From contig NC_088325.1 of the NCBI RefSeq assembly GCF_910592395.1, positions 10,108,109 through 10,172,108 of the forward strand: a stretch of DNA of 64,000 nt, in the 5' to 3' direction. Positions within the stretch are counted from its first letter, which is position 1; every line of letters starts with the position of its first letter. Under the pieces are notes generated by a model that did not search any database, was not told where the DNA came from, and was given only the letters and a program-made list of their open reading frames with translations. The position numbers and the translations under genes are program-made. This document shows, one piece after another, positions 15,527-46,840 of the stretch. This DNA comes from Lineus longissimus. Its lineage: Eukaryota; Nemertea; Pilidiophora; Heteronemertea; Lineidae.

Positions 15527-16048
15527 TTACAGATTGTAATCAAAGACCTCTTTGTTGCAGTAAGGGCAGAACGCAACAGATTTCTTCATCAATTCAGTGG
15601 CGCATGATTTACAAACTACTTCATGGAGACAGGGTGTGAGGTACCCAAGGATTGGATTTTCCAAACACACCATGCAGAGTGTCTGGAAGTCTGTCACTGG
15701 TATCCTACACACTGGGCAGTTTGCTTGTGTGTTTTCAGCTTTATCTTGCATGCTCTTGGCGCAAGAATTGCAAACAGCCACGTGTTTGCAGGGTTTGAAA
15801 TAAACTTGTACAGGATTCTTACAGCAAATCGTACAAATCTTCGCATTCCGGTGTTGTGCTCCAGGAAGGATATTGTCATATTCAGTTTCTTTTTTACGTT
15901 GATGTGGCGGAACGTTTTCATAATCCTTCTGGATGTTCGGATGAGCGACTTTGGTGTTGGTTGGAGCAGTTGCCTGTCCTTCATCTGGTGGAGGTGTTCT
16001 TGAGTCAGTCGTTTCAGGGATGTTACTAAAACTTGGGTTTTCTTGCTC
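15527..16048 (-). CDS. Gene A exon 8: cytoplasmic tail with two tyrosine motifs and tandem RING
   Basis: One open terminal exon of 173 codons plus stop, preceded by a 'tttctctag' acceptor. The tail carries DYENV and EYDNIL ten residues apart, then two complete C3HC4 patterns. Differences from gene B are Thr for Met and Val for Leu, both in the linker before the tyrosines; the RING fingers are unchanged. Confidence 0.88.
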   Translation of the reverse strand, partial: EQENPSFSNIPETTDSRTPPPDEGQATAPTNTKVAHPNIQKDYENVPPHQRKKETEYDNILPGAQHRNAKICTICCKNPVQVYFKPCKHVAVCNSCAKSMQDKAENTQANCPVCRIPVTDFQTLCMVCLENPILGYLTPCLHEVVCKSCATELMKKSVAFCPYCNKEVFDYNL

Positions 16049-17895: not shown

Positions 17896-18018
17896 CTTTG
17901 CGGGTGAAGCCTTGGGTGCAAATGCCTCCCGAGACAAGAGCTACAACAAGAACCACTATCATCTCCACTATAAGCAAAGCTATGAAGATACATTTCGTGT
18001 TTATTTGCTTCTTGGCAT
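17896..18018 (-). CDS. Gene A exon 6: second hydrophobic segment, strongly diverged
   Basis: Phase 1-1, 41 codons. A hydrophobic stretch from about residue 328 to 352 follows a Lys-rich KKQINTK. Aligned with the gene B exon (37983-38105) there are 10 base differences, all between 17899 and 17980, changing nine residues and none silent. The flanking introns differ at about two positions in some 480 bp. A glutamate (codon at 17963-17965) sits mid-membrane where gene B has glycine. Confidence 0.8.
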
Positions 18019-18999
18019 CTGGAAAAATCAATGCAGAGAATAAGTTTGGTATATGTCATGTCCCTGTCCTCCCCTCTTGAAGTTGCCAAAGAAAAGATCT
18101 CTGGCCATGGTTTTGGTTGGTTTGAATGGGAGTTTTAAAAATCCATGAGAGGTGGTTGAAATTTTCGTGCTGAACATGGTGGTTTCATTCTACAGAATTA
18201 TCATAATTGGCGTCACAGACCTAGTTGCTCCATACTTGCACTGCTGGAAGTGGCAGTGATAGACTGTTCGGAGCAATCAAAAACAAGAGGTCTGGAGTTT
18301 GTTCCTGTCCTATCTTCTTTGGTGGTGGCAAAGGCCTTATGAAACTTTTGGGAGGAAGAGGGAAGAAAAGGGGTGATTAATCGAGTTCCAAACATGTTCC
18401 TGTTGCTGTGTCTTCTGCCGAAAAAAATTGGCGCTGGTGCAGTGGTCTCATTTTTGACTGATATGTCTCATTGCATCACTACATTAATTCCGCTGTTTGA
18501 TGTGCAGAAACATTGTGGGAACATGTTTGCTTGGAGCTGGAAGATCACCGCATAAGTTACCTTTTTGTTTCAGACATCCCATGGCTATAGCGAACACAAG
18601 GCAGATGAAAACGAAGATGCCGGCCCCGATTAGGACAAAATCTAATTCATAATTTTCACAATAACTGGCTGAAAAAAGGAAAGGATAGTTTGAGAAATCA
18701 GGTGCTGGGCCCCATTGCTCAATCATCGGTGCCAAGCACTGTAGTTTTATCCTCCATTCAGATTATCTAAAGGTTGTATTTGGACTACAACAGGATGTCA
18801 TTTATGATAAAGTAAAGATTTTGAACCAGTAGTATAAAAAAAACCCATTGTAGTTAAATCTTTGACAAAGCATCATAACTTGCAATACATGTTTTTTGTG
18901 GTTGGGATTATGGATTTAAGATGAGCAACAAGTACCGCAGATGAATTTGAGGTAAGTGGCCCCCTCTAAGTCAACCCAAGAACAAGAAAATAAAGCATC

Positions 19000-19190
19000 A
19001 ATTTGAACTTCTTAAGAATCTGGACAACTACAGGCAATTGGACATTGGCTTGTCTCTTTGTATGCATGTACTCTTGGTCACACCCAAGTTTTCTCTTGGT
19101 TATAATGCCCTTAATACTTCCCTTAATAATGATGATTGTATGGAGAACTATAAACGCAGCGTAGGGCAACAATCATTTTCACAGGCTTTA
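19000..19190. other. Intron 4 of gene A, no gene
   Basis: This part of intron 4 contains a small minus-strand open frame repeated in all three units (e.g. 442-648, 18966-19172, 39053-39259). It has no recognised domain and reads as an intronic shadow. Confidence 0.4.
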
Positions 19191-19213
19191 GTGGTGATGC
19201 GTTAGCCTCATTA

Positions 19214-20346
19214 TCATCAAATACGCTTTCCGTCATTGGCTGACATTACGCGCGTCACAAGGCATCTCCATGCCACCCTATCATTTGCCAGTTCGGTCAC
19301 GTGATCTATGTCAAAGTTTATGTTGATAGTAGCGAGGTCTGTTTTTATTTGGCTCATCCACGTGGTTCTTGGTTTGCCTCTGGGTCTTCTTGTCGGCTTT
19401 TAGAATTCATCTATGGCTTGTTTTGCTGGTGTTCCCTCTGGTAGTCTCAGGAGGTGTCCAAGCTAGTTCAGTCTTCTTCTTTTTACATCTTGGCTCCATG
19501 GGTGGGTTTTGGTTGTTTGGTACAGTTCTTGGTTTGATATTCTGTCTGCTCTTTTGACATTAATTCTTCTTCTCAGGAGGGTTCTTTGGAAGGTGTCGAT
19601 TTTGTTTCCCAGTAGTTTCGTGAGGGTCCAGAGTTCACTGTTGTAAAGAAAGATGCTGGTGATGAAAGTTCTGAAGATGTTCATTTTGATTCTGGTTGTG
19701 GCTCTTGGGTTGGTGAAGTATTTGGATAGGGTGTTGAAGGCGTCCATGGCTAGGCCTTTTCTTCTCTTTATATCCTTTCCATGTCAAGGTGGCTTCCCAG
19801 GTATTTGCTTTTTTCCATTCTTCGTCTCCTGTTCGGCTGATGGTAAATTCTTCTGTTTTCTCTAGGTTGACATGGAGGTTTCTCTTCTTTAGTTTTGGTG
19901 GGATGTTTTCTTTGACGTAGCTTCTGATTCCTTTACTTGTTGTGACCCATCCTATATCGTCTGCATACTGTTGATCAATGTTGAGTTTCTTTGGCTGGGT
20001 TTGGTTGGTGATAGTTATGGTCTTGGAGATGTGGAGGGGTAATCTCTGGCTGTGGATTGGCTCTGTGATAGTTGTGATCAAGGAGGTGTGGAGGGTTCGG
20101 TGGTCTGGCTTCTTGGATGGACTTTGCTAAATACATTGTGAAGAGAATGGAGCTGGCGCAGTCTCCTTGTGGTGTTCCTATATTGGTTTTGAAATTTTCT
20201 CCGAAAGTTTTCCCGCATCTGACTTTTATTTGGACATCTCGTAGGAGTAGATCAAACATATGGACCTCGTCTTCTTCTAGTACTTCTCCTAGGTCTTTGA
20301 TTAGATCTGCTCGTCTCACTGTATCGAAGGCAATGTAGCCTCATTG
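19214..20346 (-). mobile_element. Degraded LINE reverse transcriptase fragment (unit 2)
   Basis: Same fragment as at 690-1812, with FDTV, PQGD and YADD motifs. This copy has its own differences, including a short insertion near 20085 and changed residues around the PQGD motif (LAKSIQEA against FAKCIQEA). It is inactive and lies in intron 4 of gene A. Confidence 0.85.
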
Positions 20347-20762
20347 CAATAAGAAATATCCTTTCCTTTTCTATATGCGCGGTACTGCTTTTCAAGATGG
20401 TGGCAACTTACTAGTACCAGAGGTGTTGTAAGGAAGGAAGTCAGCGCCTCTAGTGTCAAGATTGATAGATCTACATGTATGTCACTTTTCTGCCAAAAAT
20501 ACACCCTCCAGCTGTTTATCAGTTCTGAGACAATACCACCATTGAATATTCATAGGTTGGAGGGTCCAGGCCTATCAATTAGACGAGTGCATGTTTTTAA
20601 CTCTCAAGTACATATTTGGAGAGGTATTGAAAAAATATATGCTGTGGCAAGTCTACAGATATAAAGAAATTATTTGATGAAAAAATTAATTTCGAATTTT
20701 GCTAATTTGGTATTAGGGGCATGTTTTGAGATTTTTCTGCCAGTTGGCTGAAAAGGAATGTA

Positions 20763-21551
20763 GGTAATAAAGGCACTGGAAAAAAAGGTACGGAAAAAAA
20801 GGCACTAGGTAAAAAAGGCACTGGAGAAAAAGGCACTGAAAAAAAGGCACTAGGAAAAAAAGGCACTAGGAAAAAAGGCACTAGGTAAAAAAGGCACTGG
20901 AAAAAAGGCACCAGGAAATCACTATACTAGGTAAAAAAAGGCACAAGGAAAAATGGCACCAGAAAACGGAATAGCCTATTTTCAGTACCCTCCGAACAGA
21001 AAAACTAGCTTGGATAGGCAGGGAATCCTTATAAAAAATGATACAAAGATCATCCGATTTGGTCGAGTAGTTTAATCAAATTGGATTCAGGGTTCCCTCA
21101 CCAATAACCTATTTCTACAAGATACAATAGTTTATCACAAGAGTGTCAAAAAGTAAGCGACGACGCTTAGACATGATGTCATGAAATCACCCCCGGAGCT
21201 CACCCATGTGAACTAAAACGGGTTGGGGAAGGTTTGCAGGTTTTTATCTAGAGAAAAAAACTAACAAAAAAACACATACCATATAGAAATGCATGGGGGG
21301 GCACCCCATATGAATTTTGGGCCGAGGTGAATTTTTCACCTAGAGATTTCCTGGTGCCTTTTTTTCCAGTGCCTTTTTTACCTAGTATAGTGATTTCCTG
21401 GTGCCTTTTTTTCCAGTGCCTTTTTTACCTAGTGCCTTTTTTTCCTAGTGCCTTTTTTTCCAGTGCCTTTTTTACCTGGTGCCTTTTTTTCTGTACCATT
21501 TTTTGCAGTGCCTTTTTTTCCAGTGCCATTTTTTCCAGTGCCTTTATTACC
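20763..21551. repeat. A/T-rich foldback element, unit 2
   Basis: Copy of the element at 2229-3034. The left arm is a few words shorter: one 'ctggaaaaaaggcac' word is missing near 20940. Confidence 0.8.
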
Positions 21552-23174
21552 GTCTACCGCTGAAAAGAGTGGAAATATCAATGTCTGTCCAATTGTCGAT
21601 TATCAAAAAGTTTCTGTGGTCAACTACCAGTTTACTTTTCACCATTTACTGCCCGACTGTCCGGAATATCATCAGATTTTTCAACTCCTAGTGATCATGC
21701 TAGGATTAAGGGGCCTAGTTGGTCACCACTTCTGTGATTGTAGCTTGTGTAAAACTGACCTTTGCAGGAGATGCTCATAATTGTGGTGAACTCCTCCGGC
21801 TTTTTCTCCTCCACCTCATCGATGTAAAAATTGTATGTTTTGTCTATCTCCGCAGTCGGGCACTTGAATTCTACATTGGCAAAAGATCCGAAGACATTTC
21901 TGTACCGATACGTCACGCTTCCTTTGCCAGTGTAGCATCCAATAGGCGTCTTGGTAGAATCTTGAGTTCCATTTACAGATAGGCTTGGCAAAGGGTCGCT
22001 TGAGCCAGGGTGCTGCAATAAGATTCGTGGTAGGGGAGTTTTGACGAAGACGAATCAGTTTTAAAAATCAACTCTTTCAATATAATTGACATAAGTTACA
22101 GGCACATTCGAAATTACTTCATTATAACACCTTATGACATTTCTAGTGGAGGTAATTTTGATTTGCCAACATTATTATTAGCAAGTTGTGTTCGTACACT
22201 ACATAGACAGTGTACATATATTTAATTAGTTGTAGCAATTGATTGAGCAACTACACACCAAGCTTTATTCTCTGTATTTTGAGCACAATGGGACAGACAA
22301 CTCAATGCACTGCAATTAATGTTGCAATAAGGTATCTTGGCATAATGATGCGCAGTGAAGATAATAAACAAAATATTCGGTTTAAATTAGGGGAGCAGAG
22401 GACATTAAATTCATTCCACCCTTTAATTAACTGAATACAGTGTCTAATTATGTTAATAAATTTCGCAAACTTCTCAACTGTTATGCCTAATTGACTACCT
22501 ATGTTAACACGGGAAGCCATCGTTTTTGTATACTGTCCCTAATTGCGAGGTGATTGGATCAAAAAGTCACTATGGCCGCCTCCGTAATTCGGAGTAGAGA
22601 GGTGTCAGCGTCACTGAGGTTTTGGCTAAAAAAAAATCACGACTGAACGGACGTGTCCATAATGGGGAGGTGTTTACCTGGCAGAGGTGTCCGCAAGGGG
22701 ACATTCTACTGTATACATTACTTACATCTGTACTGGTTCCATACCATTTTCCTTGGAAAGTCCTGTTGACTTCTGGCCAAGTGCAGTTGCAGTCCAGGCC
22801 AATTTTGAAATTGAGAGGTGTATTTGCTTGAAGAGGATAGCTTTTATTTGTCTTCAAGTAATTGAGAACTACTGGAGATGTCGTCGTATTTGTTTGGCGG
22901 ACATTTTCTCGTTTATTGCAGGGGCCTAAAAAAATTAATAGAATATTAGGATGAAAGCCAAGGTTTTGTGTATTGCCAGAGATTTGGAAATATGCAACAA
23001 TATTCAAAAAGGAACGTTTTGCCCTAAAATGTGTATTACCTTCTATGTGCATTGCCATTGCTTGAGTGCCTTCGGGTATTAGCGTGCAAAAAGAATGCAA
23101 GAGAAAAAAGCATGGATACCATTGTGCGTTCTCACCAAAAACGTCCCGCTGGCCCTAATGCAGATTTGTCATAT

Positions 23175-23893
23175 TAGGGCCGTTTAGACGCTTTCCAAAA
23201 AGACCGCATAAGACCGCATTCCGCTCTGATCCGATCGAACCCCATTCCAGACCGGACGTGGTCTCATTTTTATAATGTAACCGTTTAGACGCTCAACAGC
23301 AATGAGGACTGATGTGGACTAATTTCTTTTGGTTCCACCAATAATCCGCAGGATGTCGCGGTGGCGTCACCGATTTAGCGCCACAATGCGGGTTATAATG
23401 CTACTAGGCAAGCTCGTTCTTATGGTAGCTGCTGTCTAGCTTCCGCTGAATGGATTGATCGCTCCAAATATGTATGAGATCGAAAACAACCGTGTCCGTG
23501 AACATATCCTTCACCATATTGGAATAATGAAAATAAGCCAAGAGAAAATACTATGAAACTGACAATCCAAACGACATTAATTCCCGCGAAAATCCACGGG
23601 TTTATAATCAAAGGAAGTATTGCCGAAGTACCAAATCCAATATGCATGCGTGTAGGTAAAAAAAATTAGTCCAGATAAGACCGCATTAGGCCCGATCACG
23701 TTTAGACGACCAAATTTGATCCGGATGAATCAGGATTAGCCCTGATGGAACCGGCAAAAGAGGTGGACCACTTGAAGACCCGATGGGACCACATGAGACC
23801 CGACCGGTTTGCGTTTACACCAGGGAAATTTAGACCGCATTCGGATTTGATCGGATCTCATCGGGCCTTTTTTCTGTCGTCTAAACGGCCCTA
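23175..23893. mobile_element. MITE with GGGCCGTTTAGACG inverted termini, unit 2
   Basis: Copy of the element at 4658-5368 with the same 16 bp termini. It shares 'ctctgatccgatcgaac' wording with the unit 3 copy rather than unit 1. Confidence 0.8.
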
Positions 23894-25095
23894 CTGGTAG
23901 GGTATATGCTTTGGTCATTCTCCTTGCAAATCAGTTATCTCAAATGAAAATTGGTATTGCTTATCCTCCCGTATTTTTGGAATTGATATTCGGCTTGCTG
24001 CAGGGGGATGGCATTGCTGGCCAGTTACATAACTATACTTGCTAACAGCAATGAATATTGTGTGTGATCTTGATATTTCCAATCGAAAGGATCTGCCTGG
24101 ACATTTTAGAATTTACTCATTATCAATCGGTGGTAGAGAAAATTCCATGTTTGCTGCCAAAGTGCAATGGTTATTTCGTGAACCGTTTTAAGTTCACGTT
24201 TGCCTTCCAAGTTGCAAAAATTGCAAAAAAGATCAAATGGTCACTAACATTACCCATCACAGAAAATGTTATACACGAGATGCTGTTGCTCATCAACGTG
24301 TACAATTTCTGTTACATCCCAGAGCTGACCTCTTTTGAAGAACTCCGTAACTAAACAGGAGTGACTGGCATCAAGAATTGACAGAACTCTGCAAATAAGT
24401 AATTTCTATTGCTGCCGGTGCTGAACAGTAAAATAAAGCTTGACAATATAACAATGTTTAATACATTTAGGTCAAGCGACAACCACTTTTTGATTAAAAT
24501 TTTCATTTTGTCACAGCTCCTTTCTGGTCACAGTGATAGAAATGACTTGTTTACAGAGCGCTTTCATGATTGGCCTTTGGGCCTTAGCCCTCTTGTTTTT
24601 AGGCTTAAATGCTTACGTCTAATCCAAACTCTGAATCTTATTCCACCTGTTGAGCATGTACAGTTATAACTCCCTGCATCGTCTTACTCTGCTATCCATG
24701 AGATTGTGTAGAGAAGTATCCCTTTCGCATTCTTCCCATAAGATACATTGAATTTAGACTGAAATTTTGGAATTACACCATCATCCTCGGACATCACGGC
24801 TTCATCATTCTTCCAGTAGACCACATCCGTTTTTTCGTTGACCGCAGACAAATCACATTTGAGTGTTATCTTTTCCCCAACTGTAACTATATGTTTGGTA
24901 TCCGCTGTTTGTCCATCTAAATATTTCTCCTGACATGTTGCAGAACAATTTACTGAAAGAAACAAGAAAAGCATTGTATGGTTGTTGGCTTGACTTTTTG
25001 TTACAATTGACAGATTATTTCATTAGTACCATTGAAATGACGATCGTATAAAAATTAACCTGTAACATTAAAAAAAACTCCTGCCCATATGCATG

Positions 25096-25262
25096 TACAG
25101 TAGAACCTCTCTATTGAGTACACCTTTGGGACTGACAAGTGCCGTCCTTAATAGAGAGGTGTCCTGATTAGGGAGGTCAATTTGAATGGAAATAACCAAT
25201 TTGTGACTAAAATGAATGTCCCTAATACAGAGGTTGTCCTTGATAGAGAGGTGTCTGCTGTA
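25096..25262. mobile_element. MITE with TACAGTAGAACCTC termini, unit 2 (internal deletion)
   Basis: Same insertion as 6568-6749, but about 15 bp of the right terminus ('aagggaggttccac') is deleted. Confidence 0.75.
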
Positions 25263-26735
25263 TCACCAATTTTTATATAAGTTGCCTTCTTTCAACCCCC
25301 ATGTTGCATTTTTCCAATGGATTGTTATGGTTTTGGGTATCAAAATGAACCTATGCTCTCCCCTTAAAGAATTAAACCATGTATTATTGTAAACCACTAA
25401 CCTTTGGGGGCATTTTATATTTTGCAGATTTTACGAATAACCTCAATTCACAAATTGGAAAAACTGAAGGAAATTTTGTTATCGCAAATTGCAATAATAA
25501 AATGTTGCTTAAATTTGGCATATTACTGTATTAAATGGGTATTTGACGATATATAAAATGCAGAATGTTCACCTTCCCTCAAATGATCTTCCTTGCCCAA
25601 AAAGACTGAAATGGGGGATTTAAGAGCCCTTTTTAGCAGGTTTGAGCTTATGAGGTCATGTCTTGTCTGGCATTCGATGTCTGTCGTCGGCATTGTCAGT
25701 GTTGTTTGTCAATGATGGTGGCACGTTTGATCACATAAAATTTGTTGTGTTGTTGTCTTCTGACAATATGACTTCACAAACAAAAAAAGGATCATCCTGA
25801 TTTGACCTACTTTCTGGGCTCTAAGCGGTCACCTGAAAATTATATTTTTTCAGTATCTCATGAACTGTTATAGCAAGAATCATGAAAGATTCACTGCCTT
25901 GGATAGATGAGACTTCTTTTTAAGGTCACAGACACCAAACACTAATAAATATTCATCAAAGGTGGCACATTCCGTCACTTTTCGTCCACGACTTTTAAAG
26001 TTTTATGCGTAGAGACCTATTAGGCATATCTACATGTTCAAAGAGATAGGTCAATGTGACCTACTTTGCCTGTGTAAGTAGGTCAATAGGTCATAAAATC
26101 ATATAACGGTCATTTATCCTGAAACCTTCGTTATGTAATCTTCTTTTGTATATCATTGATTTATCTGATCAAGCTTAACATAATACTTGAAAGAATTTGA
26201 CTTTAACCTACTTTTGTAGGGCACAGAGGTCAAACTCTAAATTTCACTTGTCATTACTTGTCCTAGACTGTTCAAATCTGATATAAGACACCCATTGGTC
26301 ATCTCTACACACTGACAAGATTTAGGTCAGTGTGAAATACTTTGTTGGGTCAATAGAGTCAGACACATTCAATACATGCGTAACCATAGTGGACGGTCAT
26401 GACAGTGTTCACAGGTTACCATGGTGAAAATGGTGGTATCAACCAATGTATACCAGCCAAGGGGGGTGCACTGCGGAAACCAGTATGTTCACATTGTGGT
26501 CGGTATTCCCTATATTGGCTATCAGTCATGTTCAATGGTTAAGATCATTCAAAGTGAAAGTTCAGTAGAACCTCCCTTAGCGGGGGTCTGTGAAGTTGGC
26601 TCCCAGTTCCAAGTTCCCAGTTCCTTATTTGTGCCCATTTTGAAACATGGTATGTTTGGGTACGAATAAGGAACTAGCAAATGGGCTAAGCATTTCCCAG
26701 TTCCCAATTCAAATTTCTTTCAAATATTAACCCTC

Positions 26736-28188
26736 CACAGTCCGATAACTCAACTTGGTGGTTTTAACCCTTTCCTACCAAGCTCCCGATTCAGCTATCA
26801 GTGACTTTAACCCTTTCTAAGCCCATTTCCCGGTTCAAAACACCAGCTCCTTATTCGTCTCAACTCATTTTAACCCTTTATAACTCCATTTCCCGATTCA
26901 TTTACAGTCACTTGAACCCTTTCTAACGCTATTTCCCGGTTCAAAATGCCAACTCCTTATTCGTCTTAACGTATTTTAGCCCTCTATAACTCCATTTCCC
27001 GATTCAAATGCTAGCTCCCGATTCAGCTACAAGTCACTTTAACCCTTTCTGACTCCATTTCCTGGTTCAAAATGCCAGCTCCTTATTCGTCTTAACTCAT
27101 TTTAACACCCTATAAGTCCATTTCCCGATACAAATACTGGCTCCCGATTCAGCTACATGTCACTTTAACCCTTTCTAAGCCCATTTCCCGGTTCAAAAGC
27201 CAGCTACTTATTCGTCTTAACTCATTTTAACCCTCTATAACTCCATTTCCCAATTCCCGGAGCCAGCATTTGAATCGGGACATGGACTTATAGAGGGTTA
27301 AAATGAGTTAAGACGAATAAGGAACTGGCATTTTGAACTGGGAAATGGAGTCAGAAAGGGTTAAAGTGACTTGCAAATGAATGAAATGGAGTCAGAAAGT
27401 GTTAAAGTGACTTGTAGCTGAATCGGGAGCCAGTATTTGAATCGGGAAATGGAGTTATAGAGGGTTAAAATGCGTTAAGATGAATAAGTAGCTGGCTTTT
27501 GAACTGGGAAATGGGCTTAGAAAGGGTTAAAGTGACTTGTAGCTGAATTGGGAGCCAGTATTTGAATCGGGAAATGGACTTATAAATGGCCAAAATGCGT
27601 TAAGACGAATAAGGAGTTGGCATTTTGAACCGGGAAATAGCGTCAGAAAGGGTTAAAGTGACTGTAAATGAATCGGGAAATGGAGTTATAAAGGGTTAAA
27701 ATGAGTTAAGACGAATAAGGAGCTGGCTTTTGAACTGGGAAATGGGCTTAGAAAGGGTTAAAGTGACTTGTAGCTGAATTGGGAGCCAGTATTTGAATCG
27801 GGAAAGTGACTTATAAATGGCCAAAATGCGTTAAGGCGAATAAGGAGTTGGCATTTTGAACCGGGAAATAGCGTCAGAAAGGGTTAAAGTGACTGTAAAT
27901 GAATCGGGAAATGGAGTTATAAAGGGTTAAAATGAGTTAAGACGAATAAGGAGCTGGCTTTTGAACTGGGAAATGGGCTTAGAAAGGGTTAAAGTGACTT
28001 GTAGCTGAATTGGGAGCCAGTATTTGAATCGGGAAAGTGACTTATAAATGGCCAAAATGCGTTAAGACGAATAAGGAGCTGGTATTTTGAACCGGGAAAT
28101 GGGTCAGAAAGGGTTAAAGTCACTGATAGTTGAATCGGGAGCTTGGTAGGAAAGGGTTAAAACCACCAAGTTGAGTTATCGGACTGTG
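26736..28188. repeat. 1.45 kb foldback built of tandem subrepeats (unit 2)
   Basis: Same element as 8520-9780 but with an expanded right arm: a unit of about 231 bp is duplicated (for example near 27605 and 27836). Left arm similar in length to unit 1. Confidence 0.85.
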
Positions 28189-29610
28189 TCCAATTCCCTC
28201 CCAATTACGAACAGTAGGCAAAAACAATGGTTTCCCACGTGCGCTTGGAGAGTCGAGTAGGCCCGACAGGTGTGATATTTGCGTAATTAATCAACGTAAT
28301 TACCCCATGGCATTGTGTTTTTGTATCCTAATTAAGCCGACGCATTTGTTTACTCATCTTTTCAACTAATCACATAGGCCTATTGTGTCAATGGACACTC
28401 ATAAATCCACGGGGTTTTGTCAGTGTTGCGGCGAATATGCGTTAGTAGAGAAATTAGAAAAAATTAACTATTAATCAAAGGTGGCTGATGGACAGAAATT
28501 ATGGTGTTTTTTCACACATTATGACATGTCGAGGAGATTTTGCAATAAAAGGGGCACCTTTTACTATATTCACTCTCTGAGTTCCAAAGTAGCTCACGTC
28601 ATTCAACGCAACATCACAAGCAAATACCGATCATCCAACAGGTTTAAAGTTTCTACGCTAGATGTCGTCACAGAGAAAACCAAGACCTGCAAGGCGGGAA
28701 CTTCAAATCCACCTATCGGACGATTTGGCATAACCTCTCTATTGCGGACACCTGGGCCCAGTCCCATGGGTGTCCACAATAGAGAGGTTGTACTGTACTG
28801 GTCTCTTTTCTGGTTAATTATAACTTTTGCTGCTCTTTTACCCACAGAGCAGTATGCAAAAAGACACTGCTAAAATACTGTTTCCCCTGCAGCGCGGTGG
28901 ATTCCCCTTTTTAATACTTTTGACTATATACACTAAGTCATCTTGCTGTCATCTTTGAACATGTTTGTGACAAGAGTGAGATCCCCACCAACTACAGTAT
29001 AAAAAAACTCAATAAGGTTGAGCACAAAGTATTCTGCATTTTGATAAGAGGACAGCTGCAGAGGTTACACGAAGTCTACTCACCATTTGGAATCAAAAGC
29101 ACCAGGCCAACGCCCAGGGTCAACATTCTTACCAAAGACATCTTAGTCGATCTTACGGTTTGTTTCATGTCTGCCTCGCTAGTTGCTAACTTCCTGGTTG
29201 GTCTGTTTTTGATTGGTCGGGTGTCGAGGTCAGGTGACATGCCGAGTGTTGACTCGAGCATGCAAGGAGGAAGTGTTATGTAGGACTAGGCCTATGGAGT
29301 TAATGTTGTGTATATTGTGCTACCATCTTGGTACATTAGGACTGACTACCTATTGTGTGGACCTCTTGGGGAGTCATGAATAAATCATCGAGCATTCCTG
29401 AATTTTGTTGTCTCACAAGACTCGAGAGTAAATTGGGCCAGGTTCCAGTGTGGGGATTCGGACAGTGTCAGCAAAGCACTGTCCACTATGGTTACTGCAG
29501 CGCTAGCAGACGACAATAAAAAATTTGAAGAACTCGGCCAGATTGAACAGCAAATAATTCCTGTTCTGTGGTACTCGACGTGGATTTCCTGGTAGATATT
29601 TCTAGAGGAT

Positions 29611-35589: not shown

Positions 35590-36111
35590 TTACAGATTGT
35601 AATCAAAGACCTCTTTGTTGCAGTAAGGGCAGAACGCAACAGATTTCTTCATCAATTCAGTGGCGCATGATTTACAAACTACTTCATGGAGACAGGGTGT
35701 GAGGTACCCAAGGATTGGATTTTCCAAACACACCATGCAGAGTGTCTGGAAGTCTGTCACTGGTATCCTACACACTGGGCAGTTTGCTTGTGTGTTTTCA
35801 GCTTTATCTTGCATGCTCTTGGCGCAAGAATTGCAAACAGCCACGTGTTTGCAGGGTTTGAAATAAACTTGTACAGGATTCTTACAGCAAATCGTACAAA
35901 TCTTCGCATTCCGGTGTTGTGCTCCAGGAAGGATATTGTCATATTCAGTTTCTTTTTTACGTTGATGTGGCGGAACGTTTTCATAATCCTTCTGGATGTT
36001 CGGATGAGCGAGTTTGGTGTTGGTTGGAGCAGTTGCCTGTCCTTCATCTGGTGGAGGTGTTCTTGAGTCAGTCATTTCAGGGATGTTACTAAAACTTGGG
36101 TTTTCTTGCTC
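35590..36111 (-). CDS. Gene B exon 8: tyrosine motifs and tandem RING
   Basis: Terminal exon, residues 406-578. Spacing in RING 1 is C-x2-C-x11-C-x-H-x3-C-x2-C-x14-C-x2-C and in RING 2 the same with x11 in the last gap; both carry the CP-x-C ending. The style (NPVQVYFKPCKHVAVC) resembles the compact RINGs of Mind bomb and IAP proteins. DYENV and EYDNIL lie 30-45 residues before RING 1. Confidence 0.92.
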   Translation of the reverse strand, partial: EQENPSFSNIPEMTDSRTPPPDEGQATAPTNTKLAHPNIQKDYENVPPHQRKKETEYDNILPGAQHRNAKICTICCKNPVQVYFKPCKHVAVCNSCAKSMQDKAENTQANCPVCRIPVTDFQTLCMVCLENPILGYLTPCLHEVVCKSCATELMKKSVAFCPYCNKEVFDYNL

Positions 36112-39100
36112 CTAGAGAAAGGAATAATATGATCATTGATTTTGATAGCATTACACAGTCATCATTTAATATTCTTCAGCATGACAATTTACACTCCTTA
36201 ATCAAATAAGAAGAAGGGTAACTATTCCTCTGTGCCGCCTGCTGTATCTGCCATAGAGGGATATTTCAGTTGGGTGGCAAGGCTTTCCAACTTCTTCTTA
36301 CCACAGCTTCTCCCTGAAGAAAGTCCTCACTATTAAGAGATAATGACATAAAAACTCGCATTTCATGCATTATTTAGCCCCAATATGGAAGTTTTGAAGC
36401 TGAAATAGACTTTTGTATACTTGCAGCAATGGACATAAATTGAGGTCTCCTCAAGTGGTCTTGATTAGACAACCAAGGAACTACCGTAAGGTGTCAATAA
36501 TTTCTTTTCTAAAACGACTCAAAGCAAATTTTTGCCACCAAATCAGAACCAAGCGTTCCGTGGTTGTAACATGAATGACTGCTGGGAGAAAAGCACGGCC
36601 TAACATATTTTCTGTTACATTCACTGACATCCTGTCCTGTGGCAGTGGTCTTTCATAATGAGCAAATTTGTAGTTCTGTTACAATCAACTGCTTGTCCTC
36701 AATCTCACTACATACCCTGCCAGCAATCTTTATCGAATCCATCAATCAAAAAAGGCCTTTCCATGCATTTTCTGGGACCAAGGCACAATTATTTCAGGCA
36801 GAATGAGATAAAATACTGACCTTAACCATATGATTTCCTTTTGGTGCTTTTGTCTTTTTTAACCAACATAGGAATAGAATGCTGACAATGATGGCCACAA
36901 TAGCCAAAATAATGACTATAATAATGCCGACCAAAGTACCCACTGGAGGGGGCAGTGCTGAAAAAGAGGGTTTGAAAATTTATTACACTGTGCAGGACTG
37001 CACAAAATAGGTTCTTCCATTATTGCTTTGTAAAAATGCCTGTTTCATGATAAAAAAGGTAATAACTGCTCCTCTGTTATAAAATTCCCACAAAAATAGT
37101 TACACATTAACCAGATATACCGTTTTTGATCACAAGATTGTCCAATGCTGAGAGCAGTTTTTTAGTCTATCATGTGGCTGAAACAGCTTTCTTCATTTGT
37201 TCAGGTGCACCATCCAAAGGATGTTCACATTTTTCCACTTTAGCACCCGAACGAATTCATAGAACATGTAGGAACAGAAATTATTTTTCTAAAGTTTGAA
37301 TTTCCTGCTCTTGTATAATTGCAAAAGTTGTGGGTTCAGACCCACTTCAGGGCACCACTGGCAAAACACTCTGATTTTTTTTGATCATTTTTTTCACTTG
37401 TAAGCTTATGTCATATTTTCTTTCTTTTGAAAAAATTTGGTTGTTTGCCATCTTTGAAATATTCTTTAAGGCCATTTTAAAGCTGGATGTTGCCAAAGTG
37501 ACTACATTTTTATGGTTATTGTTTCTTATATTCTCCAATACCTATCACCCAGGCTCTTAAATTTCACTGGTAAGTTGCACATTTTGTCATTATTTGTCCA
37601 GGAGTCTCAGGATGTCAACAAAATCGAGGTTGAAAGTGACCTACCTACAAATACATGCTGAAAATACACTGACCCATGTATTTCAGCAGAGTGCCTAGGC
37701 CCTTGGGCCTTTTGTTTAATTGAACTTCTTTCTCTCGTGAATTAGCTAGATATGCATTCCAGAAGACCTTTTTTGCATTCAGACTTTCTTGAGGCACAAG
37801 CTAGGCAGTTAGCCTGTTTTGGGCAATGAAGTTAGCTGTCCTATAGAGTTTGCCATAGAGGTCCAGAGCTTTTATTGTGAGGGTGGTGTCCTCTAGCCAA
37901 TATTTTGTAGTATGATCATCTAAAAATGTCTGTGGAAAAATTGTATGCAAAAAATAGCCATGACATAAAAATTGTTACCTACCTTCGCGGGTGAAGCCTT
38001 TGGTGCAAATGCCTCCCAGGCCAAGAGCTACACCAAGAACCGCTATGATCCCCACTATAAGCAAAGTTATGAAGATACATTTCGTGTTTATTTGCTTCTT
38101 GGCATCTGGAAAAATCAATGCAGAGAATAAGTTTGGTATATGTCATGTCCCTGTCCTCCCCTCTTGAAGTTGCCAAAGAAAAGATCTCTGGCCATGGTTT
38201 TGGTTGGTTTGAATGGGAGTTTTAAAAATCCATGAGAGGTGGTTGAAATTTTCGTGCTGAACATGGTGGTTTCATTCTACAGAATTATCATAATTGGCGT
38301 CACAGACCTAGTTACTCCATACTTGCACTGCTGGAAGTGGCAGTGATAGACTGTTCGGAGCAATCAAAAACAAGAGGTCTGGAATTTGTTCCTGTCCTAT
38401 CTTCTTTGGTGGTGGCAAAGGCCTTATGAAACTTTTGGGAGGAAGAGGGAAGAAAAGGGGTGATTAATCGAGTTCCAAACATGTTCCTGTTGCTGTGTCT
38501 TCTGCCGAAAAAAATTGGCGCTGGTGCAGTGGTCTCATTTTTGACTGATATGTCTCATTGCACACTACATTAATTCCGCTGTTTGATGTGCAGAAACATT
38601 GTGGGAACATGTTTGCTTGGAGCTGGAAGATCACCGCATAAGTTACCTTTTTGTTTCAGACATCCCATGGCTATAGCGAACACAAGGTAGATGAAAACGA
38701 AGATGCCGGCCCCGATTAGGACAAAATGTAATTCATAATTTTCACAATAACTGGCTGAAAAAAGGAAAGGATAGTTTGAGAAATCAGGTGCTGGGCCCCA
38801 TTGCTCAATCATCGGTGCCAAGCACTGTAGTTTTATCCTCCATTCAGATTATCTAAAGGTTGTATTTGGACTACAACAGGATGTCATTTATGATAAAGTA
38901 AAGATTTTGAACCAGTAGTATAAAAAAAAACCCATTGTAGTTAAATCTTTGACAAAGCATCATAACTTGCAATACATGTTTTTTGTGGTTGGGATTATGG
39001 ATTTAAGATGAGCAACAAGTACCGCAGATGAGTTTGAGGTAAGTGGCCCCCTCTAAGTCAACCCAAGAACAAGAAAATAAAGCATCAATTTGAACTTCTT

Positions 39101-42100
39101 AAGAACCTGGACAACTACAGGCAATTGGACATTGGCTTGTCTCTTTGTATGCATGTACTCTTGGTCACACCCAAGTTTTCTCTTGGTTATAATGCCCTTA
39201 ATACTTCCCTTAATAATGATGATTGTATGGAGAACTATAAACGCAGCGTAGGGCAACAATCATTTTCACAGGCTTTAGTGGTGATGCGTTAGCCTCATTA
39301 TCATCAAATACGCTTTCCGTCATTGGCTGACATTACGCGCGTCACAAGGCATCTCCATGCCGCCCTATCATTTGCCAGTTCGGTCACGTGATCTATGTCA
39401 AAGTTTATGTTGATAGTAGCGAGGTCTGTTTTTATTTGGCTCATCCACGTGGTTCTTGGTTTGCCTCTGGGTCTTCTTGTCGGCTTTTAGAATTCATCTA
39501 TGGCTTGTTTTGCTGGTGTTCCCTCTGGTAGTCTTAGGAGGTGTCCAAGCTAGTTCAGTCTTCTTCTTTTTACATCTTGGCTCCATGGGTGGGTTTTGGT
39601 TGTTTGGTACAGTTCTTGGTTTGAGATTCTGTCTGCTCTTTTGACATTAATTATTCTTCTCAGGAGGGTTCTTTGGAAGGTGTCGATTTTGTTTCCCAGT
39701 AGTTTCGTGAGGGTCCAGAGTTCACTGTTGTAAAGAAAGATGCTGGTGATGAAAGTTCTGAAGATGTTCATTTTGATTCTGGTTGTGGCTCTTGGGTTGG
39801 TGAAGTATTTGGATAGGGTGTTGAAGGCGTCCATGGCTAGGCCTTTTCTTCTCTTTATATCCTTTCCATGTCAAGGTGGCTTCCCAGGTATTTGCTTTTT
39901 TCCATTCCTCGTCTCCTGTTCGGCTGATGGTAAATTCTTCTGTTTTCTCTAGGTTGACATGGAGGTTTCTCTTCTTTAGTTTTGGTGGGATGTTTTCTTT
40001 GACGTAGCTTCTGATTCCTTTACTTGTTGTGACCCATCCTATATCGTCTGCATACTGTTGATCAATGTTGAGTTTCTTTGGCTGGGTTTGGTTGGTGATA
40101 GTTATGGTCTTGGAGATGTGGAGGGGTAATCTCTGGCTGTGGATTGGCTCTGTGATAGTTGTGATCAAGGAGGTCGGTGGTCTGGCTTCTTGAATGCACT
40201 TTGCAAAATACAGTGTGAAGAGAATGGCGCTGGCGCAGTCTCCTTGTGGTGTTCCTATATTGGTTTTGAAATTTTCTCCCAAAGTTTTCCCGCATCTGAC
40301 TTTTATTTGGACATCTCGTAGGAGTAGATCAAACATATGGACCTCGTCTTCTTCTAGTACTTCTCCTAGGTCTTTGATTAGATCTGCTCGTCCCACTGTA
40401 TCGAAGGCAATGTAGCCTCATTGCAATAAGAAAAATCCTTTCCTTTTCTATATCCGCGGTACTGCTTTTCAAGATGGTGGCAACTTACTAGTACCAGAGG
40501 TGTTGTAAGGAAGGAAGTCAGCGCCTCTAGTGTCAAGATTGATAGATCTACATGTATGTCACTTTTCTGCCAAAAATACACCCTCCAGCTGTTTATCAGT
40601 TCTGAGACAATACCACCATTGAATATTCATAGGTTGGAGGGCCCAGGCCTATCAATTAGACGAGTGCATGTTTTTAACTCTCAAGTACATATTTGGAGAG
40701 GTATTGAAAAAATATATGCTGTGGCAAGTCTACAGATATAAAGAAATTATTTGATGAAAAAATTAATTTCGAATTTTGCTAATTTGGTATTAGGGGCATG
40801 TTTTGAGATTTTTCTGCCAGTTGGCTGAAAAGGAATGTAGGTAATAAAGGCACTGGAAAAAAAGGTACGGGAAAAAAGGCACTAGGTAAAAAAGGCACTG
40901 GAGAAAAAGGCACTGAAAAAAAGGCACTAGGAAAAAAAGGCACTAGGAAAAAAGGCACTAGGTAAAAAAGGCACTGGAAAAAAGGCACCAGGAAATCACT
41001 ATACTAGGTAAAAAAAGGCACTGGAAAAAAGGCACAAGGAAAAATGGCACCAGAAAAAAAACGGAATAGCCTATTTTCAGTACCCTCCGACCAGAAAAAC
41101 TAGCTTGGATAGGCAGGAAATCCTTATAAAAAATGATACAAAGATCATCCGATTTGGTCGAGTAGTTTAATCAAATTGGATTCAGGGTTCCCTCACCAAT
41201 AACCTATTTCTACAAGATACAATAGTTTATCACAAGAGTGTCAAAAAGTAAGCGACGACGCTTAGACATGATGTCATGAAATCACCCCCAGAGCTCACCC
41301 ATGTGAACTAAAACGGGTTGGGGAAGGTTTGCAGGTTTTTATCTAGAGAAAAAAACTAACAAAAAAACACATACCATATAGAAATGCATGGGGGGCACCC
41401 CATATGAATTTTGGGCCGAGGTGAATTTTTCACCTAGAGATTTCCTGGTGCCTTTTTTTCCAGTGCCTTTTTTACCTAGTATAGTGATTTCCTGGTGCCT
41501 TTTTTTCCAGTGCCTTTTTTACCTAGTGCCTTTTTTTCCTAGTGCCTTTTTTTCCAGTGCCTTTTTTACCTGGTGCCTTTTTTTCTGTACCATTTTTTGC
41601 AGTGCCTTTTTTTCCAGTGCCATTTTTTCCAGTGCCTTTATTACCGTCTACCGCTGAAAAGAGTAGAAATATCAATGTCTGTCCAATTTGTCAATTATCA
41701 AAAAGTTTCTGTGGTGAACTACCAGTTTACTTTTCACCATTTACTGCCCGACTGTCCGGAATATCATCAGATTTTTCAACTCCTAGTGATCATGCTAGGA
41801 TTAAGGGGCCTAGTTGGTCACCACTTCTGTGATTGTAGCTTGTGTAAAACTGACCTTTGCAGGAGATGCTCATAATTGTGGTGAACTCCTCCGGCTTTTT
41901 CTCCTCCACCTCATCGATGTAAAAATTGTATGTTTTGTCTATCTCCGCAGTCGGGCACTTGAATTCTACATTGGCAAAAGATCCGAAGACATTTCTGTAC
42001 CGATACGTCACGCTTCCTTTGCCAGTGTAGCATCCAATAGGCGTCTTGGTAGAATCTTGAGTTCCATTTACAGATAGGCTTGGCAAAGGGTCGCTTGAGC

Positions 42101-45100
42101 CAGGGTCCTGCAATAAGATTTGTGGTAGGGGAGTTTTGACGAAGACGAATCAGTTTTAAAAATCAACTCTTTCAATATAATTGACATAAGTTACAGGCAC
42201 ATTCGAAATTACTTCATTATAACACCTTATGACATTTCTAGTGGAGGTAATTTTGATTTGCCAACATTATTATTAGCAAGTTGTGTTCGTACACTACATA
42301 GACAGTGTACATATATTTAATTAGTTGTAGCAATTGATTGAGCAACTACACACCAAGCTTTATTCTCTGTATTTTGAGCACAATGGGACAGACAACTCAA
42401 TGCACTGCAATTAATGTTGCAATAAGGTATCTTGGCATAATGATGCGCAGTGAAGATAATAAACAAAACATTCGGTTTAAATTAGGGGAGCAGAGGACAT
42501 TAAATTCATTCCACCCTTTAATTAACTGAATACAGTGTCTAATTATGTTAATAAATTTCGCAAACTTCTCAACTGTTATGCCTAATTGACTACCTATGTT
42601 AACACGGGAAGCCATCGTTTTTGTATACTGTCCCTAATTGCGAGGTGATTGGATCAAAAAGTCACTATGGCCGCCTCCGTAATTCGGAGTAGAGAGGTGT
42701 CAGCGTCACTGAGGTTTTGGCTAAAAAAAATCACGACTGAACGGACGTGTCCATAATGGGGAGGTGTTTACCTGGCAGAGGTGTCCGCAAGGGGACATTC
42801 TACTGTATACATTACTTACATCTGTACTGGTTCCATACCATTTTCCTTGGAAAGTCCTGTTGACTTCTGGCCAAGTGCAGTTGCAGTCCAGGCCAATTTT
42901 GAAATTGAGAGGTGTATTTGCTTGAAGAGGATAGCTTTTATTTGTCTTCAAGTAATTGAGAACTACTGGAGATGTCGTCGTATTTGTTTGGCGGACATTT
43001 TCTCGTTTATTGCAGGGGCCTAAAAAAATTGATACAATATTAGGATGAAAGCCAAGGTTTTGTGTATTGCCAGAGATTTGGAAATATGCAACAATATTCA
43101 AAAAGGAACGTTTTGCCCTAAAATGTGTATTACCTTCTATGCGCATTGCCATTGCTTGAGTGCCTTCGGGTATAAGCGTGCAAAAAGAATGCAAGAGAAA
43201 AAAGCATGGATACCATTGTGCGTTCTCACCAAAAACGTCCCGCTGGCCCTAATGCAGATTTGTCATATTAGGGCCGTTTAGACGCTTTCCAAAAAGACCG
43301 CATAAGACCGCATCCGCTCTGATCCGATCGAACCCCATTCCAGACCGGACGTGGTCTCATTTTAATGTAACCGTTTAGACGCTCAACAGCAATGAGGACT
43401 GATGTGGACTAATTTCTTTTGGTTCCACCAATAATCCGCAGGATGTCGCGGTGGCGTCACCGATTTAGCGCCACAATGCGGGTTATAATGCTACTAGGCA
43501 AGCTCGTTCTTATGGTAGCTGCTGTCTAGCTTCCGCTGAATGGATTGATCGCTCCAAATATGTATGAGATCGAAAACAACCATGTCCGTGAACATATCCT
43601 TCACCATATTGGAATAATGAAAATAAGCCAAGAGAAAATACTATAAAACTGACAATCCAAACGACATTAATTCCCGCGAAAATCCACGGGTTTATAATGA
43701 AAGGAAGTATTGCCGAAGTACCATATCCAATACGCATGCGTGTAGGTAAAAAAAATTAGTCCAGATAAGACCGCATTAGGCCCGATCGCGTTTAGACGAC
43801 TAAATTTGATCCGGATGAATCCGGATTAGCCCCGATGGAACCAGCAAAAGAGGTGCAGGACCACTTGAAGACCCGATGGGACCACATGAGACCCGATCAG
43901 TTTGCGTTTACACCAGGGAAGTTTAGACCGCATTCGGATTCGATCGGATCTCATCGGGCCTTTTTTCTGTCGTCTAAACGGCCCTACTGGTAGGGTATAT
44001 GCTTTGGTCATTCTCCTTGCAAATCAGTTATCTCAAATTAAAATTGGTATTGCTTATCCTCCCGTATTTTTGGAATTGATATTTGGCTTGCTGCAGGTGG
44101 ATGGCATTGCTGGCCAGTTACATAACTATACTTGCTAACAGCAATGAATTTTGTGTGTGATCTTGATATTTCCAATCGAAAGGATCTGCCTGGACATTTT
44201 AGAATTTACTCATTATCAATCGGTGGTAGAGAAAATTCCATGTTTGCTGCCAAAGTGCAATGGTTATTTCGTGAACCGTTTTAAGTTCACGTTTGCCTTC
44301 CAAGTTGCAAAAATTGCAAAAAAGATCAAATGGTCACTAACATTACCCATCACAAAAAATGTTATACACGAGATGCTGTTGCTCATCAACGTGTACAATT
44401 TCTGTTACATCCCAGAGCTGACCTCTTTTGAAGAACTCCCTAACTAAACAGGAGTGACTGGCATCAAGAATTGACAGAACTCTGCAAATAAGTAATTTCT
44501 ATTGCTGCCGGTGCTGAACAGTAAAATAAAGCTTGACAATATAACAATGTTTAATACCTTTAGGTCAAGCGACAACCACTTTTTGATTAAAATTTTCATT
44601 TTGTCACAGCTCCTTTCTGGTCAGAGTGATAGAAATGACTTGTTTACAGAGCGCTTTCATGATTGGCCTTTGGGCCTTAGCCCTCTTGTTTTGAGGCTTA
44701 AGTGCTTACGTCTAATCCAAACTCTGAATCTTATTCCACCTGTTGAGCATGTACAGTTATAACTCCCTGCATCGTCTAACTCTGCTATCCATGAGATTGT
44801 GTAGAGAAGTATCCCTTTCGCATTCTTCCCATAAGATACATTGAATTTAGACTGAAATTTTGGAATTACACCATCATCCTCGGACATCACGGCTTCATCA
44901 TTCTTCCAGTAGACCACATCCGTTTTTTCGTTGACCGCAGACAAATCACATTTGAGTGTTATCTTTTCCCCAACTGTAACTATATGTTTGGTATCCGCTG
45001 TTTGTCCATCTAAATATTTCTCCTGACATGTTGCAGAACAATTTACTGAAAGAAACAAGAAAAGCATTGTATGGTTGTTGCTTTGACTTTTTGTTACAAT

Positions 45101-46153
45101 TGACAGATTATTTCATTAGTACCATTGAAATGACGATCGTATAAAAATTAACCTGTAACATTAAAAAAAACTCCTGCCCATATGCATGTACAGTAGAACC
45201 TCTCTATTGAGGACACCTTCGGGACTGACAAGTGCTGTCCTTAATAGAGAGGTGTCCTGATTAGAGAGGTCAATTTGAATGGAAACAACCAATTTGTGAC
45301 TAAAATGAATGTCCCTAATACAGAGGTTGTCCTTGATAGAGAGATGTCCGCTAAGGGAGGTTCCACTGTATCACCAATTTTTATATAAGTTGCCTTCTTT
45401 CAACCCCAATGTTGCATTTTTCCAATGGATTGTTATGGTTTTGGGTATCAAAATGAGCCTATGCTCTCCCCTTAAAGAATAACCATGTACATTGTATTAT
45501 TGTAAAGCGCAAAATTTTTGGGGCTTTTTATATTTTGCGGATTTTACAAATAACCTCAATTCACAAATTGGAAAAACTGAAGGAAATTTTGTTATCGCAA
45601 ATAGCAATAATAAAATGTTGTTTAAATTTGGCATATTACAGTAATAGGTACTTGACTTAAAAGCAGTACGTTTGCCTTCCCTCAAATGCAAATGCAAATC
45701 ATCTGCATGACATATTTCCCAATTTTTTATTTGACCTATTTTTTAACGTCACGAACGTCGAACTCGAAATAAGGTGGCCTGTTTGTCAATTTTTGTCCAC
45801 AACTTTTCAGCGGAAACCAGTATGTGCATGTTGTGGGTATTCCCAAGATCATTCAAAGTGAAAGTAGATATCTTTTCTGGTTAATTAAAACTTTTGCTGC
45901 CCTTGACCCACGAAGTGGTATGCAAAACGACACCGCCAAAGCAGTTTACTTTTGACTCGATATACACCAAGTCACTTTACTGTCATCTTTTAACATGTTT
46001 GTGACAAGACAGTATAAAAACATGGCTAAATTTAGCACAAAGTATTCTGCATTTAAATAAGAGGACGACCCCTGAGGTTGACCATGTCTACTCACCATTT
46101 TGAATCAAAAGCACCAGGCCAACGCCCAGCGTAAAAATCCTCACCAAACACAT
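35590..46153 (-). CDS. Gene B: Ig receptor with three hydrophobic segments and tandem RING fingers
   Basis: Eight exons on the minus strand: 46096-46153, 44710-45045, 42820-43019, 41855-42107, 38647-38754, 37983-38105, 36821-36957 and 35590-36111. All junctions are GT-AG, phases 1,1,0,1,1,1,0; 1737 bp encode 578 residues. Order: signal peptide 1-20; Ig domain about 30-125; second extracellular region to 282 with several Cys and sequons; hydrophobic segments about 293-315, 328-352 and 366-391; tyrosines 448 and 462; RING 1 (C477, C480, C492, H494, C498, C501, C516, C519); RING 2 (C530, C533, C545, H547, C551, C554, C566, C569). Known RINGs of this type recruit E2 enzymes and transfer ubiquitin; action at the plasma membrane is inferred. 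Lys-rich stretches follow segments 1 and 3, fitting an N-out, C-in three-pass topology; alternative use of the segments is also possible. I know no named family with this layout. Confidence 0.85.
36821..38754 (-). CDS. Gene B exons 5-7: three hydrophobic segments
   Basis: Exon 5 (38647-38754, 36 codons) and exon 6 (37983-38105, 41 codons) are phase 1-1; exon 7 (36821-36957) is phase 1-0. Each encodes one stretch of more than 20 hydrophobic residues. Exon 5 ends CLKQK, exon 6 begins DAKKQINTK, and exon 7 ends WLKKTKAPKG. Either exon 5 or 6 could be skipped without changing the frame. Confidence 0.85.
39301..40423 (-). mobile_element. Degraded LINE reverse transcriptase fragment (unit 3)
   Basis: Third copy, almost identical to the one in unit 1 and more like it than unit 2 is. 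It lies in intron 4 of gene B. Confidence 0.85.
40840..41645. repeat. A/T-rich foldback element, unit 3
   Basis: Copy of the element at 2229-3034, same length and nearly the same sequence as unit 1. Confidence 0.8.
41855..43019 (-). CDS. Gene B exons 3-4: second extracellular region
   Basis: Exon 3 (42820-43019) and exon 4 (41855-42107) join in phase 0 at Asp-Asp and encode about 151 residues. Visible Cys: PCNK, DCNCTW, IGCYTG, FKCPT and SISCKG; a Trp lies in GKWYG. Length and Cys/Trp pattern would suit a divergent Ig-like fold split by an intron, but no family signature is clear. Confidence 0.75.
43269..43986. mobile_element. MITE with GGGCCGTTTAGACG inverted termini, unit 3
   Basis: Third copy with intact termini, closer to unit 2 than to unit 1 in this stretch. 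Confidence 0.8.
44710..45045 (-). CDS. Gene B exon 2: Ig domain
   Basis: 336 bp, phase 1-1, the classic arrangement of a single Ig domain exon. First Cys in 'LKCDL', Trp in 'YWKND', and 'DDAGSYNC' before the second Cys. Sequons include NCS, NVS and NCT. Acceptor 'tgtttctttcag', donor 'agac|gtaagc'. Confidence 0.88.
45189..45370. mobile_element. MITE with TACAGTAGAACCTC termini, unit 3
   Basis: Same insertion as 6568-6749 with both ends present. Confidence 0.78.
46096..46153 (-). CDS. Gene B exon 1: signal peptide
   Basis: ATG then a basic residue and the hydrophobic LGVGLVLLI, ending in phase 1 at an 'aatg|gtgagt' donor. The same exon is found at 10734-10791 and 29084-29141. An in-frame ATG at 46178-46180 would lengthen the n-region by nine residues. 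Confidence 0.75.
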
Positions 46154-46840
46154 CTCAGTTGATGTAATGGTGTGTTTCATGTATGCCCAGCTGGTTGTCT
46201 ACTTCCTGGTTGCTCTGTTTCTGATTGGTGAGGTATTGAGGTCAGGTGACATGCCACCATTCACTCGAGCGTGCTAGGAAGAAGACAGGCAAACATTTCA
46301 CAAAAATTGTGGTACTATTCCCCCCCAGTTATATGGCAAGGCTTAACCCGCAGGCCATGGAGGACTCCCTTTATGGGCGAATGGCTGGCGCGATGTCTCC
46401 AGGCAACGTTGAGTGCGGTTACAACTTGGATGAGCGTATAACACACAGGTTGCATGTATAAATCATTGAGCGGTTATCTGGACTTGGGCCAAGTTATGGG
46501 CATTGCCTTAAAAAAACCGTCTGGACAATTTTTGCATTTTTCTTTGTTTGATCATCATTAGAAATATGTAAGCAAGCCGACATATACATGTGTAGTTCAT
46601 AACTGCTGTAACACTATAGATAAGTTGCAGTAAATAGATCAGAGCAAGTATAATTTTCCTGTGTTATAATTTAGAAGGGGGTGTTTGTAACTACAGTAAA
46701 GACAAGGTTGGGGGGCACCAAAGCTTTGGGGCGCATGGGTTTTTGCCAAATTTTGCTGAATGTTCTTTGGATTTTTTGGAAAGAAATAGACATTACTGCG
46801 AAACAAAATGAATATGACTCAACTAGTCATGCTTTCAGAG

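Follow-up and report, generated by a model that had tools for sequence, protein, structure and literature searches.

A putative three-pass immunoglobulin receptor with two C-terminal RING fingers, encoded in a tandem gene cluster of the nemertean Lineus longissimus

Does one gene of Lineus longissimus join an extracellular immunoglobulin (Ig) domain to a pair of RING fingers, and what would such a protein do at the cell surface? The gene that raises this question, copy C, lies beside two close relatives, copies A and B, in the window, i.e. the whole 64-kb stretch of DNA that was analysed. The original prediction of an eight-exon gene with agreeing phases and 578 codons is borne out: the joined exons (Table 1) stay open for 578 codons followed by a stop, and all seven introns (7/7) have GT-AG borders. 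The other two forward frames contain 34 and 32 stops, and a chance open frame is excluded by letter shuffles of the joined exons, of which 0 out of 2000 had one stop or fewer (mean 35.9 stops). The 587-codon version starting nine codons upstream of ATG 46153 is the better model, because its in-frame ATG at 46180 is common to copies A, B and C and both RING-bearing annotated Lineus proteins (587 and 589 aa) begin at the equivalent position. The encoded parts follow each other in the order signal peptide, Ig domain, a module rich in cysteines and sequons, three hydrophobic exons, a linker bearing tyrosines and two C3HC4 RINGs. The three hydrophobic exons, likewise predicted, appear as three peaks besides the signal peptide.

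Table 1. Positions of the receptor gene copies and their parts in the 64-kb window
Feature	Position	Strand	Remarks
Copy C exon 1, signal peptide	46096..46180	-	ATG 46153 (578 codons) or likelier in-frame ATG 46180
Copy C exon 2, one Ig domain	44710..45045	-	Phase 1-1; C...W...DxGxYxC; Pfam Ig_2
Copy C exon 3, first half of extracellular sequon- and Cys-rich module	42820..43019	-	
Copy C exon 4, second half of extracellular sequon- and Cys-rich module	41855..42107	-	
Copy C exon 5, hydrophobic segment 1	38647..38754	-	108 nt, in-frame skippable
Copy C exon 6, hydrophobic segment 2	37983..38105	-	123 nt, in-frame skippable
Copy C exon 7, hydrophobic segment 3	36821..36957	-	With Lys-rich stop-transfer
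Copy C exon 8, cytosolic linker, two RINGs and stop codon	35590..36111	-	
Linker tyrosine motifs Y457 (YENV) and Y471 (YDNI)	35932..35985	-	Pattern search
RING 1, C3HC4	35770..35898	-	Residues 486-528 of 587; Pfam and pattern
RING 2, C3HC4	35620..35739	-	Residues 539-578 of 587; Pfam and pattern
Copy A, exons 1-4 only	3244..10818	-	Exons 5-8 outside window
Copy B, eight exons	15527..29168	-	GT-AG sites kept; exon 2 with TAA at 24684-24686

Relatives of the 587-residue model were sought among 5.77 billion proteins in a database clustered at 90%, and three matches with E up to 0.001 were obtained, all from this heteronemertean. LOC135502042 isoform X2 (P0001, 587 aa) is 97% identical to the copy C model, LOC135502043 (P0002, 589 aa) is 89% identical to it, and LOC135502040 isoform X2 (P0003, 529 aa) shows 55% identity over 58% of the model; for each of them the longest contig reported measures 15,888,539 bases and is presumably one and the same. 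P0001 and P0002 each carry Ig domain, three hydrophobic segments and RINGs in one annotated protein, and an assignment of the RINGs to another gene is rejected on this ground. The original prediction had allowed for a named family being found, and each of the three proteins is entered as “uncharacterized protein”. None of them is identical to copy C, whose protein may be contained in the P0001 cluster (7 member sequences). The search relies on shared short words and similar length, with only the 7993 candidates sharing the most words being scored, so the lack of a match outside Lineus is weak evidence for lineage restriction. The same length rule bars 587-residue proteins from searches with single exons, in which the Ig exon gave no match and all 12 candidates for exon 8 had E values above 0.001. 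A pattern scan with exon 8 returned 4 and 35 pattern matches in viral contigs and genome contigs, respectively, with no relative among them. No Ig-TM-RING family was found by name in the titles and abstract openings of the open-licence PMC papers that literature searches listed, and passages of two RING-protein reviews mention “immunoglobulin” only in other connections.

On the extracellular side, the predicted Ig signature is recognised by Pfam Ig_2 with 29.2 bits for the exon alone (cut-off 27), the score in the full protein being 23.6 bits and below the cut-off. The exon of copy C contains the features of the immunoglobulin superfamily, namely the B and F cysteines, the Trp and DxGxYxC. Its best PDB match is IL1R1, which is weak (E 0.025), and exons 3 and 4 joined resemble no entry of Pfam or PDB even with E values of up to 10 admitted. 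AlphaFold used without an alignment gave models of low confidence (mean pLDDT 41.9 for the Ig exon and 49.7 for exon 8), and NCBIfam, tRNA and Rfam scans returned nothing of use.

Two properties bear on the orientation of the protein in the membrane. Eight N-glycosylation sequons are present in the 273-residue ectodomain, where shuffles contain 3.2 on average and reach eight in 38 of 5000 cases, and none in the 186-residue tail. Charges are +5/-1 in loop 1 after TM1, +2/-1 in loop 2 between TM2 and TM3, and again +5/-1 after TM3. The confinement of sequons to the ectodomain and the positive charges after TM1 and TM3 agree with an N-terminus outside the cell and RINGs in the cytosol, an orientation that fits insertion of all three hydrophobic segments or of exon 7 alone. 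A three-pass topology with the RINGs in the cytosol is thus supported as a prediction. As exons 5 and 6 are symmetric, with the frame kept when either or both are skipped and lost when exon 7 is skipped, splicing might also switch the topology: leaving out both exons would give a one-pass protein with cytosolic RINGs, and leaving out one would place the RINGs in the lumen and disable them. This symmetry is not special, because the frame is also kept when exon 2 or exons 3-4 are skipped, and the P0001 and P0002 models contain all three hydrophobic segments; we regard such a switch as very unlikely.

At the C-terminus, the prediction of two complete C3HC4 RINGs agrees with the Pfam family PF13920 (zf-C3HC4_3), which covers two stretches of the full protein with 75 bits (cut-off 27), and with two full patterns. 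All eight zinc ligands occur in C3HC4 order in both RINGs of copy C, spaced as CxxC-x11-CxH-x3-CxxC-x14-CxxC in RING 1 and with x11 replacing x14 in RING 2. The nearest solved RINGs by sequence are those of MGRN1, CBL and IAPs for RING 1 and of MEX3C for RING 2; these proteins are soluble and of an architecture unlike the Lineus receptor. In the alignments with the PDB matches, RING 1 has a CBL-like Arg after the last Cys, a position held by Glu in its best match MGRN1, and the Gln of MEX3C corresponds to Asn in RING 2; residues of this kind have functional meaning in RINGs. The 93-residue RING stretch is identical in copy C and P0001 and differs at two residues in P0002, one of them being the His ligand of RING 2 (CLH to CLD). 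By resemblance to the RINGs of E3 ligases, the tandem RINGs may transfer ubiquitin. They could alternatively be scaffolds or dimerisation modules without ligase activity. This would suit RING 2, whose last Cys is not followed by Arg and which is short of one zinc ligand in P0002. The complete ligand set of RING 1 and its Arg are, however, present in all four of C, B, P0001 and P0002, and exon 8 differs between B and C at just 2 of 522 nt; this alternative is considered rather improbable, and ubiquitin transfer is the preferred reading.

The linker in front of the RINGs contains two tyrosine motifs ten residues apart, YENV and YDNI. Seven patterns were tried in all. The pair resembles a loose ITAM, a match that 14 of 20000 shuffles also reach, and TEYDNI agrees with the ITSM consensus TxYxx[VI] (194 of 20000). 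The spacing of 10 in the pair and the Val in the first motif deviate from a strict ITAM. The pair is present in C, B and P0001; in P0002 the second motif has changed from TEYDNI to TENDYI, which moves the tyrosine. This shows that neither the RING 2 His nor the second linker tyrosine is strictly required, as both are altered in P0002.

Several known ligase families resemble this protein in part. PA-TM-RING ligases (among them RNF128/GRAIL, RNF43, ZNRF3, RNF13 and RNF167) are described as having an extracellular or luminal domain, a membrane segment and a RING, preceded in most of them by a signal peptide, with the GRAIL ectodomain binding surface substrates (PMC4021871, PMC10127277). The Lineus protein shares the sequence of signal peptide, ectodomain, membrane part and RING with them, but has Ig in place of PA, three hydrophobic segments, and two C3HC4 fingers in place of one RING-H2; the number of TM domains in the family itself varies within PMC9424811, from “a TM domain” in the running text to “two TM domains” in one of the legends. 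Membership is rejected on these grounds, no PA domain appearing among the 16 families that Pfam lists with E up to 1. The MARCH proteins are likewise membrane proteins of RING type, and MARCH1 lowers surface MHC II and CD86 according to excerpts of PMC4021871 and PMC9424811. Unlike the Lineus protein, they carry a RING-CH (C4HC3), mostly at the N-terminus, and the excerpted descriptions give them no Ig ectodomain; with its C-terminal C3HC4 RINGs, the Lineus protein is not a MARCH. Nor is it an RBR ligase, as 10 residues separate the RINGs and Pfam lists no IBR. Mind bomb has tandem C-terminal RINGs like the Lineus protein; it is cytosolic, with ankyrin and MIB domains and no Ig domain or TM segment. 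An outer Ig domain joined to two fingers of ubiquitin-ligase type, as read from the sequence, appears to be absent from the named families compared, and the combination of Ig, three hydrophobic segments and tandem RINGs is a real architecture without a name.

The gene is not alone, and the tandem cluster of the original prediction is seen as three copies in the window whose long self-matches are 97.8, 98.2 and 98.8% identical, copy A lying only partly within it. The first four exons of copy A encode 291 residues identical to the start of P0001. Its similarity to B and C ends at position 371, inside intron 4 (window positions 1-370 are unmatched). As P0001 has exons 5-8, those of copy A are probably located further left behind an insertion. 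The copies are mosaic: between A and C, only 3 of 4000 aligned sites are different in the stretch 38982-42981, but 65 of 2647 are beyond it. Relative to A and B, exon 1 of copy C has diverged by about 15%, so the 5' end of this copy may derive from an older family member. False duplication by the assembler could produce mosaic copies that are about 98-99% alike. It is highly improbable here given three copies in one window, the divergent exon 1 of copy C and the separate LOC names, and the published 2021 assembly, assumed to be the source of the window, used hifiasm and purge_dups as stated in an excerpt of PMC8593623, which also counts against it.

The differences between the copies are unevenly distributed. 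Exons 2-8 of B and C differ at 19 of 1679 sites and sequence outside exons at 167 of 11923. Exons 2, 3, 4 and 8 together account for 4 of 1311, fewer than in non-exon sequence (p=0.0002), which fits selection on the protein, and the TM exons for 15 of 368. All changed codons alter the protein, 17 of 17 between B and C (one being a stop) and 2 of 2 between A and C; where a codon carried two changes (CTG/TCG and GTG/TTC between B and C, GCG/CCC between A and C), it was counted as wholly nonsynonymous even though one step could be silent. The chance of zero silent changes among 19 without selection is 0.003 to 0.01, depending on the assumed transition bias, and is weakened slightly by the two-hit codons.

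In the Ig exon, only 1 of 336 nt differs between B and C and 3 of 336 between A and C, and P0003 shares 107 of the 112 residues of this exon with copy C. These figures bear on a diversified self- or allorecognition receptor, in which a variable Ig domain would mark individuals and the RINGs would pass on the outcome. The Alr cluster of Hydractinia is a precedent for clustered invertebrate Ig receptor genes, having a variable Ig ectodomain and no RING, and an array of Ig receptor genes that arose by recent duplication and are mosaic in their identity would suit this explanation; the conservation of the Ig exon among copies and paralogues makes it most unlikely. Of the receptor originally envisaged, the Ig domain, the three hydrophobic segments, the two RINGs, cytosolic by topology, and the tandem cluster stand, and self-recognition by a diversified domain is not supported.

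Variation is instead found in the TM exons of some members. Exon 6, which has matches in the window only in B (17896-18018) and C (37983-38105), differs at 10 of 123 bases, each changed codon altering the protein, and the 500-base bin to which it belongs contains 11 differences in all. That copy B has merely decayed under relaxed constraint is rejected as the whole cause of its differences, as relaxation should not lift exon 6 to this level against 167 of 11923 outside exons. P0002 differs from C at 30 of 123 residues in the TM exons, mainly in exons 5 and 7, and at 25 of 436 in exons 2-4 and 8. In P0001, the TM exons show no such excess over these other exons (1 of 123 and 10 of 436 residues, respectively; p=0.47); of its 18 differences from C, 8 are found in the exon 8 linker and 7 in exon 1. 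The hot spot is thus present in two of three comparisons with C (B, which is a broken gene, and P0002) and missing in P0001. Diversifying selection and exon-sized gene conversion, including conversion from an unseen paralogue, both fit the differences in the TM exons.

P0003 differs in another way: it agrees with C at only 70 of 151 residues in exons 3-4, has no RING, has another signal peptide and tail, and has hydrophobic segments in the corresponding region. This recalls the vertebrate paired receptors SIRP, KIR and PILR, in which near-identical Ig domains sit on differing membrane and tail parts; their tails carry ITIMs or are linked to adaptors, they have no RING and usually one TM segment. 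RING and RING-less members of the Lineus family could in the same way share one Ig specificity on differing tails, with one arm signalling and the other removing or silencing. The near-identical Ig exon of P0003 speaks for such pairing. However, a single RING-less member is available, itself an isoform model, the shared ectodomain holds for the Ig exon only, and the common Ig may stem from recent exon conversion without function, so we consider paired receptors unlikely.

With gene structure, domains and annotated paralogues of the same layout observed directly, a mechanism can be proposed in which the protein would be a three-pass surface receptor, activated by clustering, that is a RING ubiquitin ligase in its own right and modifies itself or its neighbours; judged from sequence, we put this at about an even chance. 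The signal peptide would place the Ig domain and the glycan-rich module outside the cell, and the three passes would put linker and RINGs in the cytosol, with the plasma membrane rather than an endosome assumed. Binding of a ligand or a neighbouring cell by the Ig domain would cluster the receptor, whereupon the RINGs could ubiquitinate the receptor itself or adjacent receptors, among which there may be RING-less paralogues that share its Ig domain. Receptors ubiquitinated in this way would be internalised or signal differently. Phosphorylation of the linker tyrosines may attract SH2 proteins and thereby gate the process; RING 1 is the likelier catalytic finger and RING 2 possibly supports it. 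Points against this mechanism are the variable linker, in which 8 of the 18 residues that distinguish C from P0001 are found, the altered RING 2 His and second tyrosine of P0002, the Glu that MGRN1 has in place of the RING 1 Arg, the low confidence of both structure models, and copy B, which is broken in the Ig exon.

Surface recognition would in this mechanism be coupled directly to ubiquitination. In animals, receptors at the cell surface as a rule depend on ubiquitin ligases brought in from the cytosol. If the mechanism is true, recognition and ubiquitination would reside in one chain, as in RNF43/ZNRF3 with another ectodomain, and the protein would be a natural counterpart to the engineered receptor degraders described in PMC10127277. 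A further possibility combines a uniform Ig domain, diversifying membrane and cytosolic parts and ubiquitin transfer by the receptor's own RINGs as output: a nemertean paired-receptor system in which the fast-changing TM exons of some members would set assembly and so which neighbours are ubiquitinated. We hold this combination to be rather improbable. It would be uncommon for TM exons to be what varies in a family of Ig receptors.

The window contains further features around and within the receptor genes. On the minus strand, two overlapping open stretches of 171 and 113 codons (53416-54224) have no Pfam match above the cut-off, nor an NCBIfam match for the first, and are possibly a gene of no recognised family. 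About 23 units of a 60-base tandem repeat (52051-53433), open in two plus-strand frames (483 and 580 codons from stop to stop), are probably a minisatellite. Intron 1 is lengthened by palindromic repeat clusters in copies A (8520-9833) and B (26736-28241), which are unmatched in C. Intron 4 of all three copies contains reverse-transcriptase-like remnants (39553-40417, 19466-20340 and 942-1806), identified by Pfam RVT_1 for 39725-40417 and by similarity for the other two; their presence in A, B and C implies that the insertion probably predates the duplications.
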